DNA from: Siderastrea siderea
Lineage: Eukaryota; Cnidaria; Anthozoa; Scleractinia; Rhizangiidae
Reading direction: 5' to 3'
DNA: 64,000 bases
NCBI GenBank assembly: GCA_964030785.1
Contig: OZ034968.1
Span: 73,209,427 to 73,273,426 of the forward strand
A model generated the notes under the pieces. That model was not told the origin of the DNA, made no database searches, and saw only the letters and a list, made by a program, of their open reading frames with translations. Positions within the stretch are counted from its first letter, which is position 1. Each line of letters begins with the position of its first letter. This document shows, piece by piece, positions 37,901 through 50,302 of this stretch. A program made the position numbers and the translations under genes.

Positions 37901-40900
37901 AGTATAGAGTGTGTTCCACACATTTAATCAGCAGTTTAAGCAGCATGTCTAAACATTTAAGTTTCTACTGTGTTTCAAATACTGGTATTCTAAGAATTTT
38001 TTTTGGGGGGGGGGGGAGGGATAAACTAATTTTGATGTTCTATTTTTTTAAATCCTCATTCAATTTCCATGCTGAATCAGCCTGCATGACTTCTAAAATG
38101 CTTCTCAAAGTACCAATCTCTCTCAACAGCTTCAGCAGGGGTGTGAGGAAAAAAAACAGCATGCACTTTGACCATGGCTAACTAGCAGTTGTATACTTTT
38201 AATTAGCGCTGACAAATTTGCAACTCAGAGCTTGAAATCTAAACTCTCAAAATCAATTATCAAAAAATATTTTACAAACATCTCTTGCATGATTCATTCA
38301 ACAAAATCAGGAATTCTAGAAAAAACAACTTGCATTAACCTCTACAGCTAAACAAATGTTTGATTCGTGTCAATTGCAAAAAAAAACAAAACAATTAAAA
38401 CAAAAACAAAAACATCCTAGTGCTTGAGCAAGCAGCAGGAGAAATTTGTTGTTTGATAGCATGTTTGTTATTTAACAATATATTTTGGCCCTCCTGTTGA
38501 AGTGCCTCCCAAAAAGGGTGGAAGAAAAGTTGTTTTGCATTTTGTGGTCTTATAACCTCTCTTGTTAATGCCTATATTTCACATTCTTTGCATTGTTGGT
38601 GTCCTAAAATAATCATTGCCGGTATTAACCAGGGACAATTAAATCAATCTAGTACTGTCCATTTAACCCAGTTCAATCAATTTCTATGTTACGTTTGTAC
38701 TAAGGACTTTAAGTCATCGTAAATTGTTTAGGGGAGAAGATAAAAGACTCATGACAAGAAATCTATGAGACAATAAAATGGGAAATGATATAAACCGAAA
38801 TACTGTTTGTCGGTCTGTTCCGAAAAGACTAGAAAAACAATTGTCTAATTGTTTCATGCATTGTTCTTATCAGTTGCAAGAAGTCTTCAAAATCCGGGCT
38901 GATTTTTAAACTGTCAGCATTAAAAATAATATAACTTTGATCTCGTCTAACTAACCATTCTTGAAAATACAATCTGTGTATTGTCCTTGTAAGAATTACT
39001 GAATTTGATCTATTGATGAGACGACATAAATTAAGACTACGAAAATTAAACATGGCCCGTGCGCAATTAATTTGTTATTGACAGCGTAAATTAGAGATTC
39101 GTAAAAGAAAATACTGCTGACAAGCTTAGAAATTAAGCGCTGCGGTGAAAAGGTACAAACGCTTCACTTGATGTTTAGTACACTTGGCTAATAAGTATGT
39201 GTAAAAAACACTAAAATCAGCTAACTAATTTATTCGCGCGACAGTGAAATACACGTTAAAAAGACTTTGTTCACCTTATTATTGTTATTTTATGTATAAA
39301 ACGTTCACAGTTTGCCTTTTCAGATTAATAAAAACATTCCAGAAAAGATGAGAACCCTTGAATTTGTCAGGAAATAGCACATCAACGCGGAAATAAAATA
39401 TTTGAAAAATATAATTCGAGTGCACGTGAAAACCATCACGCGAAGCTCCCGTAGTGGACAAATTCCTTTTCGGTCAAAAATTAAATAAACAAACAAACTA
39501 AAATGCTTACCTCAGATCTGGCGGACTCCACATCAACACCAAGACTTTCTTGCCTTTTCGATTCTTCGAGAGTCCTTGGTCGTACACGGACGTAGACGCG
39601 AATTCTGTCCGATTCTATATTGGACGCGGAAAGCATAAAAGCGTAAATTAACGCTAGTCACGCGGTCGGTTCCGAATAACCTTTTGCTAAGCTGATGTTT
39701 ATACCGCGTGCGTATTATATCAGCCTTTTGATTGTTTTGTTGTGTATTTAATGTGTCCAAGAACAAAGTGCCATTCGAGACAGAGCAAACGCCAAACTAA
39801 ACACTCAGATGAAATGCCAAACAAATGAACACATAATACTATTGTGAAGGATTCAACAAGTACTGCTATTTAACTCACCGCCTTCCCGTGATCTTAAAGG
39901 CTTCTTATCTCTCATCTGGCCTTAGATAAATATACCCAGTGCTACGGAAGCCAAAATGTGGTTCCTGTAAGGCTAGATTTCAAAACATCCATTTCATAAC
40001 CCGATTGCCTGCCGCCAAATCACCGTCAAATGCTCTACGCACAGCTCATGCAAATTAACAGCTACTTGAGATAAATTCGCTTATTCAATGACACACGTGA
40101 CAACATTACCACCAACCCTGTAAATTTTGCTCCAATATTTTATTTCCTGTTGTGACAAACAATAAAACTTGATATTGAGTGGAAAAGCAAGTTTTCAAGT
40201 ACTTCTAGAAGACTGAAGTATGTTTATACATCAAATAAATACGGTGGCCCATATCTGCAAAACACAACAACAAATTCTTTAACACAAATTCAAATTCACT
40301 AAACACAACAACAAATTCTTAAACACAAATTCAAATTCACTAAACACAACAACAAATTCTTAAACACAAATTCAAATTTACTAAACACAACACAGTACAG
40401 CAAATTCGTTTAACAAAAATTCAAATTCAATAGACACAACAACAAATTCGTTAAACACAAATCAAAATGCACTAAACACAACAACAAATTTGTTAAACAC
40501 AAATCAAAATGCAGTAAACACAACAACAAATTCGTTAAACACAAACCAAAATGCAGTAAACACAACAACAAATTCGTTAAACACAAATCAAAATGCACCA
40601 AACACAAAGCAGAAGTGATATAATTCATGACAATTATTCAACGTCTAAACCCAACATTTGTCAACCGCTGACAACTCGCTTTTACAAAAGCCCGCCATTT
40701 TCTGCCATTTAAAAGTGTGAAGAAGGTAGAAGATGGATGGTTTTCTTAAGTGCTTGTATTGCTCGGAAGAGCTCGAGACCACGTTCGTGTTTTGTCCCAG
40801 ATGTGGAACAGCTGTCGATGAAGAGGAGGTTCTCATACGTTATTACTTCGATCGTGGATTTCATTACTCGATCATTTTACAATTATTGAAGAAGTACCAC

Positions 40901-43900
40901 GCAATTGAAATGTCTATGCGGACACTTCACAACAGACTTCGAGAGTATGGACTGAGAAGAAGGGATACAAAGACTGACGATAGGGACGTACACCAGGCTA
41001 TCCAGCAAGAATTAGATGGGCCCGGTTGTATGAGGGGTTATCGAGCTATGTGGCACTGCCTTCATTTGAATTACGGGATTCAGGCACCAAGAAGCAAGGT
41101 GGAGAGCATATTACGTGCGTCAGGTAGATCCCGAAGGAACAGCTCTTCGAAGGGCTCATAGACTAAGGAGAAGGATGTACACTAACCCCGGGCCTAATTT
41201 TGCGTGGCACGTAGACGGCTACGATAAACTTAAGCCCTATGGCTTTCCTATCCATGGTTGCGTAGACGGTTTCAGTCGTCGAGTCATGTGGTTAAAGATT
41301 TGCCCCTCAAACAACGACCCATCTCACGTAGCTTCGTTGTTTTACGACTGCGTTTTTTCGAACAAAGGTTGTCCAAGAGTTTTCCGAACAGACTGTGGTA
41401 CTGAAAACGGGACCATGGCAGCCATGCAGTGTTACTTTCGTGGATCTGGAAACGACGATCAAGCGGGATTAAATGCACATAGATACGGCTCGTCTCCAGC
41501 AAACCAGCGCATCGAGAGAATGGTGGTCATTTTATCGTCACGATAGATCAACTTGGTGGATAAATTTTTTTAAAGATTTAGTGGACAGAAGCGTTGTCAA
41601 CACTGCAAGTGAATTAAGTATGCAATGTCTATGGTTCTGTTTCAAAGACATCTTGCAGGCAGATCTAGACCACGTACGGGATCACTGGAATACCCATTAC
41701 ATTCGCAAATCACGACACGATACCATCCCTGGGAGACGTGATGAACTTTTCTACCTTCCAGAGAACAGTGGATTTGAAGATTTCAAATGTCTGGTTACCG
41801 ATCAGCAACTGGATGATATGGCCGTGTACTGTGCTGTTGGCAATGATGAAAACATCTTTACAGAGTATTTTAATTATGTGCTAGAAAGTTTGAATCTGCA
41901 CCCCCCTGCAAACTGGAGGGAGGCTTTAGCCCTTTTCCAACATCTGATGCAGATAGCAGGATAACTCATACCACTGCACATGACATTTGTCTATCGTTAA
42001 CTGTAATGCACTTATCAATGTTTTGCCCGACCCAGGAGAGGGCAGGTTTACCTGGGGGTATTTTTTACTGCTTGCATGTCAATAGCCCCACTCCCCCTAC
42101 AATGGAGCACCATTTTGCCAAATATCCTCCCCCCCCCCCCCCCCCCCGGGAAAGCACGTCTTAAATACAGTTCAGTACGGATGTATTTACTTCAGGAACA
42201 GGCCATAAAAAATATTTAAAATGGCCATTTCATGAAGGTCCAGTTCATGATTGTTCAAATGATTGTGGTCAGTTGCTAAAAATTCACCAGTTCATGACTA
42301 ATTTATGTTTGGCCACAAGGTTACTAACTTGTCAGCTTCAATAACATGTTTACTTCTGAAATTATGAATATATGAAACTCATATATTTGAACTGCAGAAT
42401 GAAGAAATAAGTGTAAAGAAGATCCTCGCAGTTATTAACGCAACTTATGCAGTTGCGAAAAGAAAGCCCTGAAAAAATCAGGCTTGCCGGGATTCGAACC
42501 CTGACCTCTGCGATACCGGTGCAGCGCTCTAACCAATTGAGCTAACAAGCCAACTGGGAGCTGGGGCCCGTTTCTAGAAACTCCCGATAACTTTCCGGGC
42601 CCGAAAACTGTTTTAGGTGCACAATATTCTCCAACAGCTATATAAATTTTATTGATTTTGAAAGCTAAATTTTAATCTTTATAATTTCATGACGCATATC
42701 TCTAAGTTTGCACCAATAATTACCATTAGCTGACAAATAAATGAGCTCGAAAAAAATACTTACCAGGCCCGGAAAGTTACCGGGAGTTTCGAGAAACGGG
42801 CCCCTGGTCATTAAATTGGTTCGTAATATACCCGGGAAAGATGAAGATGAAATTATGAATATATGAAACTCATATATTTGAACTGCGGAATGAAGAAATA
42901 AGTGGCTTGTTAGCTCAATTGGTTAGAGCGCTGCACCGGTATCGCAGAGGTCAGGGTTCGAATCCCGGCAAGCCTGATTTTTTCAGGGCTTTCTTTTCGC
43001 AACTGCATAAGTTGCGTTAATAACTGCGAGGATCTTCTTTACACTTATTTCTTCATTCCGCAGTTCAAATATATGAGTTTCATATATTCATAATTTCATC
43101 TTCATCTTTCCCGGGTATATTACGAACCAATTTAATGACCAGCTCCCAGTTGGCTTGTTAGCTCAATTGGTTAGAGCGCTCCACCGGTATCGCAGAGGTC
43201 AGGGTTCGAATCCCGGCAAGCCTGATTTTTTCAGGGCTTTCTTTTCGCAACTGCATAAGTTGCGTTAATAACTGCGAGGATCTTCTTTACACTTATTTCT
43301 TCATTCCGCAGTTCAAATATATGAGTTTCATATATTCATAATTTCATCTTCATCTTTCCCGGGTATATTACGAACCAATTTAATGACCAGCTCCCAGTTG
43401 GCTTGTTAGCTCAATTGGTTAGAGCGCTGCACCGGTATCGCAGAGGTCAGGGTTCGAATCCCGGCAAGCCTGATTTTTTCAGGGCTTTCTTTTCGCAACT
43501 GCATAAGTTGCGTTAATAACTGCGAGGATCTTCTTTACACTTATGTTTACTTCTGTAAGGTTTTCTCTCTTGTCTCAATTCCAAGCTTTGTCAGCTCTGC
43601 TTTACAAAATTCCCACCTAAGACCCCCACTCCCAGGCACCCATCTGATGAATTTTCCTTTCATGGAATGCAGTCCCATGCCCGACCCTCTCGGGGGATAG
43701 AGGGAGTGTTGAGCAACAATAACAACACATTTTTCTTGTGTACATAGGGATTCAGCCAATTAATTTGTTGCTCAAATAGATACCAGGCAGTTGCAAGGAC
43801 GTAAGTGTAACCTTCTTATTATTTCTACAGAAGGACCTTCAAATGAATAACTCTAAACAGCAACCAGAATCTTAAAATTTCTACTAAGACCATGCTGAAC

Positions 43901-43979
43901 TGTGATCAGACTGGCATTATCATTGTAATTTTTTTTTTGCACAATTGAAAATTTTTACATTTATAATTGTGCAATAGAA

Positions 43980-44034
<55 letters not shown>

Positions 44035-47000
44035 GTGCTGTTATCCTTGTGTCATTTCATGATCCTGTTGTTGTGTGCTAATGTTGTTGTTGTTGTTCTT
44101 GTTCCTATTGGCCTTGTTTTCTACACCTTTGTAGGATCTGAGCAAACAAAAACAGCATAAATTGAGGCCCTATTTCAGACCAGTGTTGTCATAATTGATA
44201 CCTTCTGCTCAAAACCTCACACTTTAGGAGGGACGTATATGTACAAAGCGTTTACCATGGGGTACATATAAAATGAAATAGAGCAGTGAAATAGTTTCAA
44301 CAAAATCATCTTTATTCATTGGTGTTCAGCTGTCAGTTTCGTTTCACTTCAACATGAAGTTTCCTCTAATAGGAATAAAATATCAATATTCCAAAGGGAA
44401 AAACGGTATAGCTTCAAATTAAACTACTTTTCCATGTGCAGCATCAGAAATACAGTTTCAAGTTGCAAAAATTTCAAAATTCACTAATGAAAATCTCGCC
44501 TCAGTAAATAGTAGCTACATGTAAATTTCAACTAAGTAACAAGGTTGTAACGAATCTTCACAATAAATGATTGTAGCTCTTCAGTACTCACAGATCCAGG
44601 AAGACAACAAACCCCTTGAACTGAACAAACCAGTTTCGATGTATGTTCTAAGCAAGAACCACCTGCAACTATGCATATCCATAACCCTTTGTATTGAGAA
44701 ATGCAAATGTAAGATCTTGTTTGAAATCATCGTAACTTGCATGGGTTACTGGTAGCCGTAATTTACAGGCACATGCATTTGCCATTGGAAACGTAGACAT
44801 TATATTATCCTTCCCTTCGGGCTCATGGAGGAAGCTAAGCTGTAATGCCAGGCCACATGGAGGAACCTTCCTTAAGCCAGTGACAAAGAAAAGAATATCA
44901 CTGAAAGTGATTTCAACTGACTGATCTTCAACATCTTGGAGATAGTCTCTCCAATGAGATAGAACTAGACTCTCACGTTGACGGTTATTTGACCCTTCAT
45001 CACTGTAGTTAATAGTAAAGAGACAATCAAATAAATCTGCATTAAGCTGAACATTGGAATAGCAGAACACTTCTTTAAATTTTTCATAATGTTCTGTCAT
45101 AGCCCCTAAGACACCTAATGTAGAAAGACCTGCTTTGAAACGTTCAAAGCAGGCATGTCCCCTACCTAACACAAACCAATGGGCAGTGTTTTGAACAACA
45201 CTTAAAACATCATCCTGTTTTCTTAATATCTGAAGGGTGCCTGCCAGTTCTAAAACTTTTTCTAGATTATCTTCTGAAATCAGGTTTTGAGCTTCTTTAA
45301 CTGTTTTGGCATCTTTTAAACGTTGTAGAGAATTTCTTAGCTCTACATCGTACACATCCTCCAGGTTTACAGTCGTTTGCATGACTCCTTTTGTCAGTGC
45401 ATCATATAAGGGTAACCCGAAGCACTTTGGCCCGGGTCCACCATGCACTACTGACATGGCAATAAGCTCACCAGCATAAAAATAAAAATCATCTCCTAGA
45501 TAGTTAGAGTTGCATGACAAATATTTGTTTTTTTCTGTGCCACAGAATAACTGTGAATTCATCATCCACTCCATCACAAGGGTAAAAAATTCCCTTTTTG
45601 GCCCCCCTAAATCTACTGCTCCCTCAGGAGTTCCCGAATCATCAGTAAATTTAACTGAGACCTTGCTCTCAGGGGAAAATGACTTTCTTCTGAGACCTCT
45701 TAAAGCCCCTTCCCAAAGATGACTACGACTGATATTAAATTTGGAAATCTTATCCTCATTAATCGCACAGGCCAATTGTGTAAGTATATCTTGTAATGAT
45801 GAACCACTGTTTGTTTCCAGTACTCCTGGAAAATCTTCATGGTTAGCCTCTTCCTCTGATTCACTACTATTGTGTTGTTCTTCACAAAGCAAGGAGGCAT
45901 ACAGCAGGTCACTATCAGATGTAGCTGTGCAATCTGGGTCTCCAACATTAATTAACATGTCTGATGAGTTTTGACTGGTCAGTTTTTGGAGTTCCCTGTA
46001 AAATGAAGATGTAAGCATTCCTTTGGTGGATATCGTGCAACCAAACCAAATCCAAGCTATGACTAAAACTACGACTAAAATTGGATTGGAAGGACATTCC
46101 ACAACACTAAAATTATATTTCATGATTATACCTATGTTGAGGGCCAAGTTGAAGAGGAGGTTCACACTCATCTGTTCTAACTTTTTTCTTCCTATAAAAA
46201 AGTAAATATTTTGACATTAATTTTAAACAAGGCATCTTTTATTCTGAAGGAATCCAGAATTGAAAAGATATTCTACAAATATGGTTTAATGATTATACCG
46301 GTGTTGAGAATCAGGATTAGGTTAAAGCAGATGTTCTTCTTGAGGTTCACAGTCCTCTTTTCCAATTCTCCTTCTGTTGAAAAATAGCAAACATTAAATC
46401 AACATAAGATAATTTTAAAAAAAGTAGCTTTTGCTCTGAAAGAGAGATGTCAGGGATATGCACTGTAAAATACGACTGCATGGATGAAAATATGACTCCA
46501 TATAACTAATTTATTTACAGTCCTCCCAGTACAGTATGTAGCGCCATTCTGCCTAAGCCAGTCTTGTTAAAGATTAAAAGCACGCAAAGTTTGTTCTATT
46601 TTCTATATCACTTCAGTGATCCGTACAGCATATCTTACCTTGTATCATGACTATCAGACTCCTCATCAGCATCATTATCGATTTCCAACTGTTCCGGTTC
46701 GTCTGGGCACAAGTACAAGGTTATCCTGTTGTACTGTTTTCCTAAATCTTCTTTGTATTTTCGCAAAGTAAACGCTTCCTCTGGTTGACCTGGGAGAGTC
46801 ATAGCCGATTGGCCATCGGGGTAAACTAGTTTCCAGCTTGTTGTCGTGTCAAATGACTTGTCATGAGCCTGTCGCTTCACCAAGGCCTCCGCGAACACTT
46901 CTATGTACTCTGAATCCTTTTTTACTTTTAAGGGCAATGTTTTTCCACGAACTGGTGTAACCACATCTGGACTAACGTACCGCATGATACCTATGTTTAT

Positions 47001-48240
47001 TAGTGCGAACGGATCCACGTTTTTGGACTTCGCTGCCTTTTTCTTTGAGCCACTTCGGAAGTGAGTAGACCTCTCTTCGGTTTTCTTTGCTGCATAGTTT
47101 TTGAAGGACAGACATTTTGTTGCTGCATTCTTATTTGTTTCATTTGTATTAACGATGTTGCTCCCTCTCTTTTGTCCGCAAAAAGGACAAAAATTAGCTG
47201 AAGGATCCAAACCAGCTCCACAGCTGGAACAAAACATTGCGAAATGGCGGAACACTGGCGGGCTTTAGCAAAAGCGAGTTGTCAGCGGTTGACAAATGTT
47301 GGGTTTAGACGTTGAATAAATGTCATGAATTATATCACTTCTGCTTTGTGTTTGGTGCATTTTGATTTGTGTTTAACGAATTTGTGGTTGTGTTTACTGC
47401 ATTTTGATTTGTGTTTAACAAATTTGTTGTTGTGTTTAGTGCATTTTGATTTGTGTTTAACGAATTTGTTGTTGTGTCTATTGAATTTGAATTTTTGTTA
47501 AACGAATTTGCTGTTGTGTTTAGTAAATTTGAATTTGTGTTTAAGAATTTGTTGTTGTGTTTAGTGAATTTGAATTTGTGTTTAAGAATTTGTTGTTGTG
47601 TTTATTGAATTTGAATTTGTGTTAAAGAATTTGTTGTTGCGTTTTGCAGATATGGGCCACCGTAAATAAAGGTAAGCTTGTATCAAAGTTTCGCGATTCA
47701 TCATTTTTTTTCGGATAATGTTTAAATTCAGTGGACAATTTTCAGTGACTTGCGGATCCTACAAATAATGCAGAGTAGGACTAAATAGATTTTTGGTTTC
47801 GTTTTCTACGGTGATATCTTTTTTGAAAGGGGCAACCGGAAAGTACGAAGATTTCGAACGGTGAGACACTGCCGCCGGCAGTACCGTTCATTGTGTGCAC
47901 TTTGCTGTATAAGCTTAAATCATCCGGTGAGCATAACATGATGATGTTCTTGTATGTACAGGTTAATTCCATAACCTTTATAAATTTCAGCATTAAGACG
48001 TGCAAACTGTTTATATGCCCACTTACAGTGACACTAAACTAGAAAATTAAAATTTGTATTTGATTCCCCCTACCTGCACGACCTCATCACTGTTCGTACC
48101 CTATCACCAGAAAAAAATCTTCAGAAGTTGAAGATTTAAGAAAAGTACACCAATAGGTAGCTATAATACAAGGAATGATTGAAGATTATAAGTTCTCTAA
48201 AATAAATCTTACATGACAAGCTCCTGCTGGACGCCATCAT
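19906..48240 (-). CDS. Kinesin-like motor protein, about 1282 aa, 23 exons, ARK/KIN-UB-like
   Basis: ATP-driven microtubule motor. Exons in translation order: 48213-48240, 39879-39920, 39511-39614, 37488-37562, 37261-37348, 36217-36314, 35897-35996, 35304-35427, 34530-34600, 33581-34008, 33436-33480, 32639-32715, 31509-31607, 31290-31407, 30933-31037, 28698-28749, 26078-26205, 23381-24650, 22647-22715, 22178-22374, 21503-21566, 21037-21121, 19906-20287. All phases agree (3849 nt). The motor starts [11 protein letters not shown] (about 27-37). The P-loop GQTGTGKT is at about 108-115, switch I NRVSSRSH at about 215-222, and switch II DLAGSE at about 429-434. The motor ends [10 protein letters not shown]. 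Roughly 160 Ser/Pro-rich residues split switch I from switch II. A coiled coil follows ([14 protein letters not shown] region), then an acidic Ser-rich tail and a basic C terminus (GGKKKKKSD). FGQRALKI and [14 protein letters not shown] recall ARK/KIN-UB kinesins, but I see no armadillo repeats. If exon 1 is not used, translation could begin at MRDKK in exon 2, giving about 1271 aa. Confidence 0.9.
21690..21740. repeat. (AACC)n and (AAAC)n simple repeats
   Basis: Consecutive CCAA and then CAAA tetranucleotide runs in a kinesin intron. A microsatellite. Confidence 0.85.
21796..21884. repeat. Short tandem duplication in a kinesin intron
   Basis: The segment CAGTGAAAACACTTTTTTCT followed by GCAATTTAT occurs twice in a row, with a slightly longer T run in the second copy. 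No further structure is seen. Confidence 0.7.
30751..30768. repeat. Poly-C tract
   Basis: An uninterrupted run of C in a kinesin intron, likely variable in length. Similar G or C runs lie near 10550, 37120, 38007, 42131 and 50650. Confidence 0.85.
32046..32155. repeat. Three imperfect tandem copies of a roughly 35-bp unit
   Basis: The motif TGTCAGTTAACTACTA occurs three times (once as CAGTAAACTACTA) at regular spacing, followed by the partly inverted TAGTTAGCTA. This is a small minisatellite in a kinesin intron. Confidence 0.7.
32484..32630. mobile_element. Small inverted-repeat element (147 bp)
   Basis: The left arm GTCAGACTCGTACCCAGTC is matched by the inverted right arm GACTGGGTACGAGTCTGA. 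The outer bases (ACTGGGGGCC and GGCCACTGGT) are less well matched. The interior is non-coding. The CTCGTACCCAG core also occurs in the inverted element at 58590-58756, which suggests related families. Confidence 0.65.
32842..33180. mobile_element. 339-bp foldback MITE with TTA target duplication, rich in CATCCCGGGATG
   Basis: The left terminus GGCCCCGTTTACATGAG and the inverted right terminus GGCGCCGTTTACATGAG extend as inverted repeats for about 36 bp with one mismatch. TTA lies directly outside both ends (32839-32841 and 33181-33183). The element contains many copies of the palindrome CATCCCGGGATG or its halves, so each arm is itself a series of small palindromes. The 3-bp TTA duplication and terminal G-rich repeat fit PIF/Harbinger-type non-autonomous elements. 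Confidence 0.85.
34971..35165. mobile_element. 195-bp MITE, AGCCCCG family copy 1, TAA target duplication
   Basis: The element begins AGCCCCG and ends CGGGGCT, with TAA directly outside both ends (34968-34970 and 35166-35168). The inner arms are inverted too (CATTTTCGTCCAACATCGTG against a CACGATATTGGACG form). The same family is found at 55066-55260. Structure is PIF/Harbinger-like, non-autonomous. Confidence 0.8.
36141..36228 (-). repeat. Tandem repeat covering a kinesin exon-intron junction
   Basis: About three 32-bp units lie in a row. The first contains the true exon end and donor (ACTACAAG|GTAAAC on the minus strand, exon end 36217). The second carries a degenerate copy, ACTATGGG|GTAAAC, whose donor would end an exon at 36185. 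Use of that donor would add 32 nt and break the frame. The third copy is more diverged. Confidence 0.7.
40258..40620. repeat. Minisatellite in the left terminal inverted repeat
   Basis: About eight units of about 40 bp, each built from AACACAACAACAAATTC and AAACACAAATCAAAATGCA or AAATTCAAATTCACT variants. The array is mirrored, inverted, at about 47338-47645 in the right terminal repeat. Outer units carry the AATTCAAATTC form and inner ones the ATCAAAATGCA form on both sides, so the whole array was inherited as part of the inverted repeat. Confidence 0.85.
40733..41964 (+). pseudogene. DDE integrase (transposase) of the IS3EU-like element, frameshifted
   Basis: The transposase begins at ATG 40733 just inside the left terminal repeat, with a zinc ribbon (CLYCSEE...FCPRCG), then a helix-turn-helix-like stretch ([18 protein letters not shown]). 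The catalytic core follows. The first Asp is in [15 protein letters not shown], the second in [15 protein letters not shown], and the Glu lies in NQRIE just before WWSF. The C-terminal part includes [16 protein letters not shown] and [12 protein letters not shown]. The reading is broken twice. Near 41113-41120 the frame moves (about 4 extra bases around CGTGCGTCAG), so [10 protein letters not shown] continues in another frame. At about 41518-41526 one extra A separates NQRIE from WWSFYRH. Everything else is well kept, so the copy looks recently inactivated. An intron is unlikely at either break because no splice sites fit. Confidence 0.85.
41990..42356. other. Spacer inside the transposon between the integrase and the tRNA-like repeat block
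   Basis: Non-coding, with a C-rich tract near 42131-42147. I see no gene or clear structure. Confidence 0.5.
42357..43545. repeat. Cluster of four tRNA-like repeat units, one inverted and three in tandem
   Basis: A 248-bp unit is present as three direct copies whose tRNA-like blocks start at 42904, 43152 and 43400, plus one inverted copy with its block at about 42480-42552. Each block reads GGCTTGTTAGCTCAATTGG, then GGTTAGAGCG, and near its end GGGTTCGAATCCCGG, i.e. clear box A and box B. The acceptor arm pairs 6 bp (GGCTTG/CAAGCC). The anticodon arm is CTGC..GCAG with loop ACCGGTATC, in which C replaces T33. A nominal GGT (Thr) anticodon can be read, but the defects favour a tRNA-derived repeat. 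Copies are almost identical to each other (one has CTCCACC for CTGCACC). Confidence 0.8.
42565..42808. mobile_element. MITE nested inside the tRNA-like repeat block
   Basis: GGGCCCGTTTCTAGAAACTC on the left is matched by an inverted GAGTTTCGAGAAACGGGCCC on the right. The neighbouring tandem units preserve the uninterrupted site (on the minus strand of the later copies, GGGAGCTGGTCATTAAATT), so the insertion and a 3- to 4-bp duplication (CTG or CTGG) can be read directly. The interior of about 200 bp is AT-rich and non-coding, with a second inverted pair GATAACTTTCCGGG / CCCGGAAAGTTACC. Confidence 0.8.
43981..44032. repeat. (TTA)n microsatellite
   Basis: About 17 consecutive TTA units inside the transposon, between the tRNA-like block and the HECT gene's 3' end. 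Confidence 0.95.
44669..47237 (-). CDS. Zinc-ribbon / HECT-domain protein of the transposon, about 661 aa
   Basis: Carried by the transposon and convergent with its integrase. Exon 1 (46639-47237) starts with ATG just inside the right terminal repeat and encodes a zinc ribbon ([10 protein letters not shown]...[11 protein letters not shown]), a basic linker and a domain with [18 protein letters not shown]. Its phase joins either directly to the last exon (44669-45995) or through a 60-nt exon at 46132-46191 that keeps the frame. The last exon encodes an acidic stretch, then a HECT C-lobe-like region ([18 protein letters not shown]...[16 protein letters not shown]...) ending KGYGYA. In [10 protein letters not shown] the first Cys aligns with the catalytic Cys of HECT ubiquitin ligases, and the terminal aromatic-Ala is like the usual FGFA ending. 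No frame break is seen, unlike the integrase. Similar G2E3-like HECT proteins are known from other animal transposons. A role in transposition is inferred, not shown. Confidence 0.8.
46291..46383 (-). pseudogene. Duplicated, probably dead copy of the 60-nt mini-exon
   Basis: On the minus strand this segment has a good acceptor (TTTTCAACAG) and a donor GTATAATCAT identical to that of the mini-exon at 46132-46191. The content is similar (GAGGACTGTGAACCTC here, GATGAGTGTGAACCTC there). Read in phase it meets a TAA stop after CATCTGCTT, so including it would truncate the HECT protein. It looks like a tandem duplication of the exon with its intron borders, later decayed or used as a poison exon. 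Confidence 0.55.
47250..47664. repeat. Right terminal inverted repeat of the IS3EU-like transposon
   Basis: Inverse of 40240-40704 with moderate divergence. It contains the mirrored minisatellite (TTTGTTGTTGTGTTTAGTG units) and the inner unique part TGTTGGGTTTAGACGTTG. The terminal GGGCCACCGTA lies next to the AATAAA target duplication. Confidence 0.85.
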
Positions 48241-49036
48241 GATTTTTCTGAACACTGTGAACAGCAAAACCGCTGACTATTTGAAGGCGCCCTGAAGAGG
48301 AGAGCGTTAACTACAGATAATCTAAAATTCGCTCACGACATGTTTTCTTTTATCTCGGAAAATAGACAAAAAGTTTATATGAGCTGTATGATCCGCCAAA
48401 CCATTACCGCGCATAACTTATAACGCTTCTCTCAGAATTTACACTCATTCAGACTAAGGTCAACAAAAACTTCTGCGTGACATCTTGAGTGTTACTCGTA
48501 CTGAGGACATCCAGAAACCCACCTTTCTAGACTTGTTCCGAGTTGCTCGTCTCTTCTCATGGGGACAGAGGAGACGTTTAGATAATGGCAAAACACGCGC
48601 TCGGAAATTTTGTGTGTATTGCGCGCCATGCGATGCAAAAGGTTGTCTGCGAAACGAGTAGAAGCAGCCACCACCTTGCCTTGGACCACGCGAGCATCCT
48701 CCATAATCAGAACGAGCGACTTGGAGCAAGTCTAGCTAGGGTTAACCCCAAAGGGTAAAAAGTGTGGATCTTGCAGCTCAGTCAGCCCCGTGGAAAATCA
48801 CTTTTAAACGCGTAGCTATATTGCGTTTGCGTATTTGCTCACTTTTCGAACATCTGGATTGCACGCGCCAAGCATTAGTTGCGCGTGTACGTAATCGCTT
48901 CGAAACGTTGTCATGGAAATAACCAACGGTTTTAAACAAGGCAGCCATTGTTTTTCCTTCAGAGGATAAGCTCCATTGTTGCGAAACAAAGACGTTGTCA
49001 CATTTGCATTGTCGATTGTTTATTGCAATTCAGACA
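48241..49036. promoter_or_regulatory. Divergent spacer between the kinesin and Sox start codons
   Basis: About 800 bp separate two divergent start codons, so this stretch must hold both promoters or act as one bidirectional promoter. No TATA box stands out. A 70-codon open frame on the minus strand (48492-48704) shows no known domain and may be 5' UTR. The region is richer in G+C than its surroundings, as expected of a promoter. Confidence 0.5.
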
Positions 49037-50302
49037 ATGCCAAACTTGACGACATCAAAAAACGAACACAATGGTTCAATTACCAGCAAATCTTCACCAA
49101 GCGATGGACTGGCGTTGCAAACAAAACAAGAAGAGAAAAGATCGACGCATGAAAAAATTCAGACGCCTAAGAAGTCAGTGGTACAGAATGGCTCACCCAA
49201 CCACTCTACTCCCAAAAACGAAACAAAAACTCGGGAATTTTCCTGTCCTGCTTCGCCGGTTCAAAAGACTTCAAACAACTCCACACCACAATCCACGGAT
49301 TTAGCAAATCCTGGTAGCTTCAAAGGCTTCCCTTTTGATCCGATGAGCCAAACATTTCTCCGTATGCCTCATATGTACCACAGCCTTCAAGCGCAGCTCC
49401 AACAAAGCAATTCCCCTAAAGTGAAACGGCCAATGAATGCATTTATGATCTGGGCGCGGCTGTATCGATCGACTATCGCTAAACGATACCCAAACGCGAA
49501 CAACGCTGAGATAAGCGTAAAGCTAGGAGAGATCTGGAACGAGCTCTCCACGGAACAACAGCGGCCCTATTTTGATGAAGCTTCTCGTTTAAAGGAAAAG
49601 CACCGAATGGAGCATCCAAATTGGGTTTATCAACCAAGGCCGTCAAAACGGCGACTGACGTACATGACGACGCATAGTCCTGGTGGTATGCAGTTTAACA
49701 GCGCTTCTTATAGCTACCAGCGCACTCACGGTCCTCAGGCAGTCAACAGTAGTCCTCCACTTTCTCCTCAAGCCATGCACGAACAAGCAAACTCATCGAT
49801 ATGTTTTCAACCACGGAGTCTCAAAGAAGCTTTCAATCTGGCGCATCGGGTTCCTTCAAGCATGAACAGATTGTGTGAGAGCTCGCGTAGTGTTGGATTA
49901 CCTTCAGTCACAGAGCACGGCCTGTTTGGAAATGAGGAACGGAACGCAGCAAATGGCAAAGAAAACGTTTGCGCGAAGGAACAAGAGCAGGCCGTGGATT
50001 GGCTGAAAGTTGAAGCGTCAAAATTTGAGGAAGAGCAAATAGCAGCACGTCGCACCCGGGAGAACTGCATCGTGAACGACGCCATGCTGCCAACTGTGGA
50101 TCACTTGAACGATGAACAGGAACAAGTAGCCCAGATTAAGCAGGAAATGGATAGTGAAGGCAATGACTTGGAAAGGTACCTCGCGGGACTAGATGAAACA
50201 ATAAAGGAGAGTCTGGAGAAACTTAATGAGGTACCTGATGAACTGGACTTGCTGGATGATGAAAACATGGACATGCTAAGTGATATAGAAGAAGACGACT
50301 AA
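49037..50302 (+). CDS. SOX30-like (SoxH) HMG-box transcription factor, 421 aa, intronless
   Basis: A nuclear DNA-binding regulator. The HMG box (residues about 129-200) reads [17 protein letters not shown], then [17 protein letters not shown], then [15 protein letters not shown] and ends [21 protein letters not shown] and WVYQPRPxKR right after the box are features of the SOX30 (group H) branch, where other Sox proteins usually have NSEISK and YKYRPRRK. The N-terminal 128 residues are polar, Ser/Thr/Gln-rich. The C terminus is strongly acidic ([19 protein letters not shown]), a likely activation or interaction region. The start at 49037 is the first ATG of the frame. A poly(A) signal AATAAA lies at 50368-50373, 66 bp after the stop. 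One uninterrupted exon holds the full HMG box, unlike the many-exon neighbours, so it may be a retrocopy or simply intron-poor. Confidence 0.92.

Follow-up and report, generated by a model that had tools for sequence, protein, structure and literature searches.

We found that a 64,000-nucleotide stretch of the genome of the coral Siderastrea siderea (assembly GCA_964030785.1, contig OZ034968.1, forward-strand positions 73,209,427 to 73,273,426; hereafter the window) contains a two-gene transposon, in which the genes for a transposase and a HECT protein are arranged head-on and each lies just inside the same terminal inverted repeat. The convergent pairing, which an initial annotation had singled out from the window alone, proved recurrent: it was found in 13 of 15 copies of the family and at nine of ten loci from other families, and all 54 nearby pairs detected across the genome were convergent. 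We tentatively propose, with a little less than even confidence, that the element is an IS3EU-type transposon whose HECT ligase would ubiquitylate the proteins bound to its ends, the transposase first.

Boundaries and terminal repeats of the element

The transposon spans positions 40240-47664, and the interval 40658..47310 assigned to it earlier was too short. Its left tip, TACGGTGG at 40240, and its right tip, CCACCGTA at 47664, are each adjoined on the outside by the same 6 bp, AATAAA (40234..40239 and 47665..47670), which constitute the target-site duplication. The left terminal inverted repeat is 458 bp long (40240..40697, plus strand) and the right one 408 bp (47257..47664, minus strand); they are identical at 402 of the 408 aligned bases (98.5%, gaps of 42, 7 and 1 aside), which is far beyond chance. 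Both contain subterminal repeats, which at the left end are tandem 42/21-bp units (40260-40608) and at the right end occupy 47345-47644. The repeat had been described as shared up to the start codons; both genes do start just inside the same repeat, but the match ends 36 nt short of the transposase ATG and 19 nt short of the HECT ATG.

Four tRNA-Thr(GGT) genes, one on the minus and three on the plus strand, lie inside the transposon, flanked by the 3' ends of both genes (42357-43544), in near-identical 248-bp units. An open frame with a SOX-like HMG box is located 1.3 kb past the element (48995-50302).

Because the repeat-to-ATG gaps are only 36 and 19 nt, transcription would have to initiate within the repeat itself, within the short gap or beyond the element. 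TATA-like patterns (ATATAA), to which a promoter role can be ascribed conditionally, are present 116 nt upstream of the transposase ATG (40617..40622, plus strand) and 98 nt upstream of the HECT ATG (47335-47330, minus strand). The motif CCGCCAT, which we take to be a YY1/TISU initiator (CCGCCAT/ATGGCGG), lies 41 nt upstream of the transposase ATG, at the inner edge of the repeat (40692..40698, plus strand), and again 13 nt upstream of the HECT ATG (47244..47250, minus strand). It occurs within 60 nt of 9 of 14 gene starts, as against a total of 20 occurrences across 94 kb of sequence from the loci concerned; the 14 starts comprise the two in the window and, from ten other loci, ten transposase and two HECT starts, with that of the L031 transposase being a guess. 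The spacing and the recurring start-site motif make it plausible, as had been suggested for the repeat as a whole, that the inner repeat edge serves as the promoter of both genes.

Transposase gene

The transposase gene (40733..41964, plus strand) encodes a zinc ribbon, a helix-turn-helix-like stretch and an rva_4 integrase core. The window copy has two frameshifts, and copies L013, L014, L019 and L022 have no stop across 407 transposase residues. The rva_4 profile was found in 30 of 30 transposase relatives. The catalytic D, D and E are among the invariant columns of the transposase alignment, and no HHCC set is conserved upstream of them in the same alignment. The N-terminal ribbons of both proteins are located where they had been annotated and match Pfam Zn_Ribbon_1. 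That of the transposase (C-x2-C-x10-C-x2-C, here CLYC-x10-CPRC; 40751..40804, plus strand) does so at E=1.1e-4, under the curated cut-off, and that of the HECT protein, of the same spacing (CSSC-x10-CPFC; 47231-47178, minus strand), at E=2.9e-6, above it. Relatives of the transposase with 32-36% identity (L001-L003) were also seen in a sponge-symbiont assembly, on small contigs that are perhaps sponge DNA in the symbiont bin.

HECT gene and its product

The HECT gene lies on the minus strand, and its three exons (47237-46639, 46191-46132 and 45995-44669) together form a 661-residue open frame. The first carries the ribbon and a predicted ubiquitin-like (UBL) domain (residues 74-181; 47018-46695), which would thus lie between the ribbon and the HECT domain. 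The small middle exon was placed by splice signals and the open frame, and its junction is also present in protein P0002 of Montipora, one of the corals that figure among the closest named relatives. An exon-like stretch at about 46373-46299 was excluded from the gene model because its inclusion adds an in-frame stop. The last exon encodes the HECT domain (residues 221-661; Pfam HECT, E=5.7e-11), with the codon of the catalytic Cys, residue 628 of 661, at 44773-44771.

A profile comparison matched the protein to NEDD4 (E=7.8e-23), and the best Foldseek match of its structure model was Smurf2 (E=5.1e-15); Pfam, the model and Foldseek agree on a HECT fold with the catalytic Cys in the C-lobe. 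Conservation of this Cys, suggested earlier as a check, is high: it is present in 83 of the 90 HECT hits with a residue at that place (9 further hits have a gap) and in 41 of 41 sequences of a chosen alignment. The product is predicted to be an active ubiquitin ligase.

Copies of the window family

The genome (831 Mb, 402 contigs) was searched with the left inner end of the element, that is, the transposase end, so that the search covers elements retaining this end. From 29 matches, 17 stretches representing 14 other elements were taken. Including the window, both genes are present in convergent orientation, in varying states of decay, in 13 of 15 elements, two of which (L016/17 and L023/24) are lengthened by insertions. 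Most members thus retain the HECT gene, contrary to the finding named beforehand as fatal to the pairing, although the two genes are not always present together: L025 has no HECT match, and L028 has mere remnants (transposase residues 5-81 and HECT protein residues 5-22). L025 (C7:35968500-35978000) keeps both tips and is not an ordinary insertion, because its flanks are inverted copies of one another. L028 (C7:39363500-39372500) is a derivative that retains both ends and, of each gene, no more than the first codons, separated by about 6.5 kb of other sequence.

A perfect 6-bp target duplication flanks 7 of the 12 elements in which both tips were found, and the left tip reads TACGG in 13 of the 14 elements in which it could be read, that of L028 being altered. 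Of the 12 readable transposase starts, 8 have all four ribbon Cys; of 12 HECT starts, 10 do, and of the remaining two one has a frameshift and the other a stop. The transposase DNA of the copies is 93-99% identical to that of the window, and therefore the family was mobile fairly recently.

Nonsynonymous/synonymous ratios were calculated for each copy against the window and then against a base-matched expectation, with each change counted once. By copy, the ratio was 0.10-0.68 for HECT exon 4 and 0.18-2.14 for exon 1 (8 copies each). When all changes are counted, selection on HECT looks weak (0.65 for exon 4 and 0.83 for exon 1), and the transposase ratio is 0.62; for changes common to at least two copies, the ratios are 0.28 for exon 4 (5 of 13 changes nonsynonymous), 0.47 for exon 1 and 0.40 for the transposase. 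These ratios, based on small numbers, are consistent with constraint during the active period of the family.

Pairing in other families

A transposase search of the genome, in which 102 of 1034 candidates were scored, gave at least 115 matches. Ten other-family loci (L029 and L030 belong to one family), with transposases 39-55% identical to the query, were chosen before any result of a HECT genome search was available. A HECT-type partner faces the transposase at nine of them: the HECT profile gives strong matches (E between 1e-177 and 5e-7) at L029-L034 and L038 and weak ones at L037 (1.3e-4) and L035 (1.3e-3), where the N-terminal part of the partner is clear, and it was unmatched at L036. 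L030 is a second complete case: its tips are TACGGTGGCC, its subterminal repeats differ from those in the window, its target duplication is ACTTTC, and its HECT protein begins with a ribbon and its transposase with a variant of one.

Across the genome, where 95 of 260 HECT candidates were scored, 19 of the 41 HECT-exon groups have a transposase group within 10 kb, and every one of these 19 is convergent with it, with 0.09 expected; the other 22 have no transposase within 10 kb among those listed from the 102 scored candidates. The first exon, for which all 149 of 149 candidates were scored and whose matches show the ribbon-UBL part and not HECT itself, gave 54 of 80 groups within 10 kb of a transposase, all 54 convergent, with 0.18 expected, and other families supply 42 of these 54. 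Viewed from the transposase side, where again 102 of 1034 candidates were scored, an exon-1 match lies within 10 kb of 54 of 96 groups. These group counts do not represent independent events, because near-identical copies are counted apart.

Distribution and kinship of the zinc ribbons

Ribbons are common in both genes and universal in neither. A strict N-terminal ribbon occurs in 61 of the 120 public transposases listed (1360 found). Among exon-1 hits it occurs in 25 of 68, which amounts to 25 of the 29 reaching residue 1, and the remaining four look damaged; within the genome, 29 of 66 other-family exon-1 groups align from residue 3 or earlier. One HECT protein of a toothfish and one of Lingula also start with a ribbon, and the HECT relatives P0072, P0075 and P0089, as well as the partial P0068, have no N-terminal ribbon. 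Since many relatives of both genes are without ribbons, a ribbon-based address could not be general. The transposases of L034, L035, L036 and L037 seemingly begin with a hydrophobic stretch in place of the ribbon.

The two ribbons had been suspected to be related, and here the evidence divides. In the set-wide comparison, HECT ribbons were no closer to transposase ribbons than column-shuffled ones (mean best score 29.8 vs 29.6 +/- 1.2; 79 of 200 shuffles as high), and on a tree of 119 transposases the ribbon trait changes at least 13 times, a count inflated by late start-site calls. Both results fit an independent origin of the two ribbons, alike only in having the widespread zinc-ribbon pattern; we give such an origin an even chance, and under it the two-gene transposon would stand and the idea of a shared address would fail. 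Against it, the transposase ribbons of L033 and L038, which lie in a separate upstream exon missed by the ORF-based search, are nearer to HECT ribbons (best scores of 38 and 32, respectively) than to transposase ribbons (24 and 16), and the HECT ribbon of L030 shows the opposite pattern (34 against transposase ribbons, 25 against HECT ribbons). The ribbon may conceivably be a shared address tag, passed between element ends during evolution, that takes both proteins to the same repeat, where the ligase would dismantle the transposase-DNA complex via the ubiquitin system of the cell; we regard this specific form as improbable. Such dismantling would be a eukaryotic counterpart of the unfoldase step with which phage Mu transposition ends.

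Possible roles of the HECT protein

The same terminal repeat leads into a ribbon-bearing DDE transposase at one end and a ribbon-bearing HECT protein at the other. The ribbons may guide the two proteins to the repeats; the ligase may then mark the end-bound transposase, whereupon the complex would be dismantled, or the amount of transposase limited, after transposition. We prefer action on end-bound proteins, foremost the transposase, because each of the two proteins begins with a ribbon, the repeat is likely a shared promoter and the pairing is persistent.

A host target is nearly as likely. The HECT protein may ubiquitylate a silencing, repair or restriction protein of the host, with the ribbon serving for protein contact instead of binding to the ends of the element; this alternative, to which we assign roughly a one-in-three chance, is favored by the existence of HECT lineages without a ribbon. 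Host-directed enzymes also have a precedent in the superfamily, since fungal IS3EU elements carry, beside an alpha-kinase gene, TET/JBP genes thought to counter methylation (PMC12730594). However, the window family has kept a ribbon at the start of each gene, and the host-directed alternative comes with no candidate target. That the HECT gene is a captured host gene traveling as a passenger with no role in transposition is the least probable alternative, for although the window copy has an open HECT frame beside a frameshifted transposase and L025 retains both tips without HECT, the pair persists at 9 of 10 other-family loci whose transposases share just 39-55% identity with the query, and 83 of 90 hits have retained the catalytic Cys.

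If action on end-bound proteins is correct, this genome harbors IS3EU elements equipped with a ubiquitin ligase of their own, and ubiquitin would be part of the life cycle of a DNA transposon.

Comparison with known systems

The window protein resembles NEDD4/Smurf-type ligases in HECT fold and profile, but identity in the structural matches is 16-20%, and a ribbon and a predicted UBL domain are found in the window protein, whereas NEDD4/Smurf-type ligases have C2 and WW domains. Among the 99 HECT relatives listed, 15 of the 22 named hits are called 'G2/M phase-specific E3 ubiquitin-protein ligase-like', and two such animal proteins (P0076 and P0083) are among those sharing the middle domain of exon 1. 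G2E3 has PHD/RING-like zinc domains N-terminal to HECT, and its record P0097 differs from the window protein in having a PHD domain, 28% identity and no Cys at the catalytic place. Domain searches of the window protein found no PHD or RING domain, and only the short zinc ribbon and a domain without a Pfam match precede HECT; hence it was not classified as G2E3. If our reading is true, this suggests that some of the animal genes bearing the G2/M name are transposon genes, a point relevant to claims of gene-family expansion. The protein P0087 of the hemichordate Ptychodera flava has a TDP-43-type N-terminal domain joined to the exon-1 domain and to a partial HECT domain.

Judged by its ends and target-site duplication, the element belongs with IS3EU/GingerRoot (PMC10045372), with which it shares TA..TA termini (TACGG..CCGTA in the window), a 6-bp target duplication (perfect in 7 of 12 family elements; ACTTTC in L030) and an IS3/IS481-like DDE transposase without an upstream HHCC domain. 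It differs in its HECT partner, ribbon and convergent second gene, which the accessible part of that source does not mention. No report of a transposase-HECT pair was found in the literature searched.

The TET-bearing fungal IS3EU elements (PMC12730594) likewise have TAYGG..CCRTA tips and a 6-bp target duplication, and the words HECT, zinc and ribbon are absent from the portion of that text at hand. In the arrangement described there, the transposase and alpha-kinase genes are opposite in orientation with the TET/JBP gene between them, so that alpha-kinase and TET/JBP stand where the window element has the HECT protein. By analogy, a gene for a protein-modifying enzyme lying opposite to the transposase in both cases hints at a slot for such enzymes in the superfamily.
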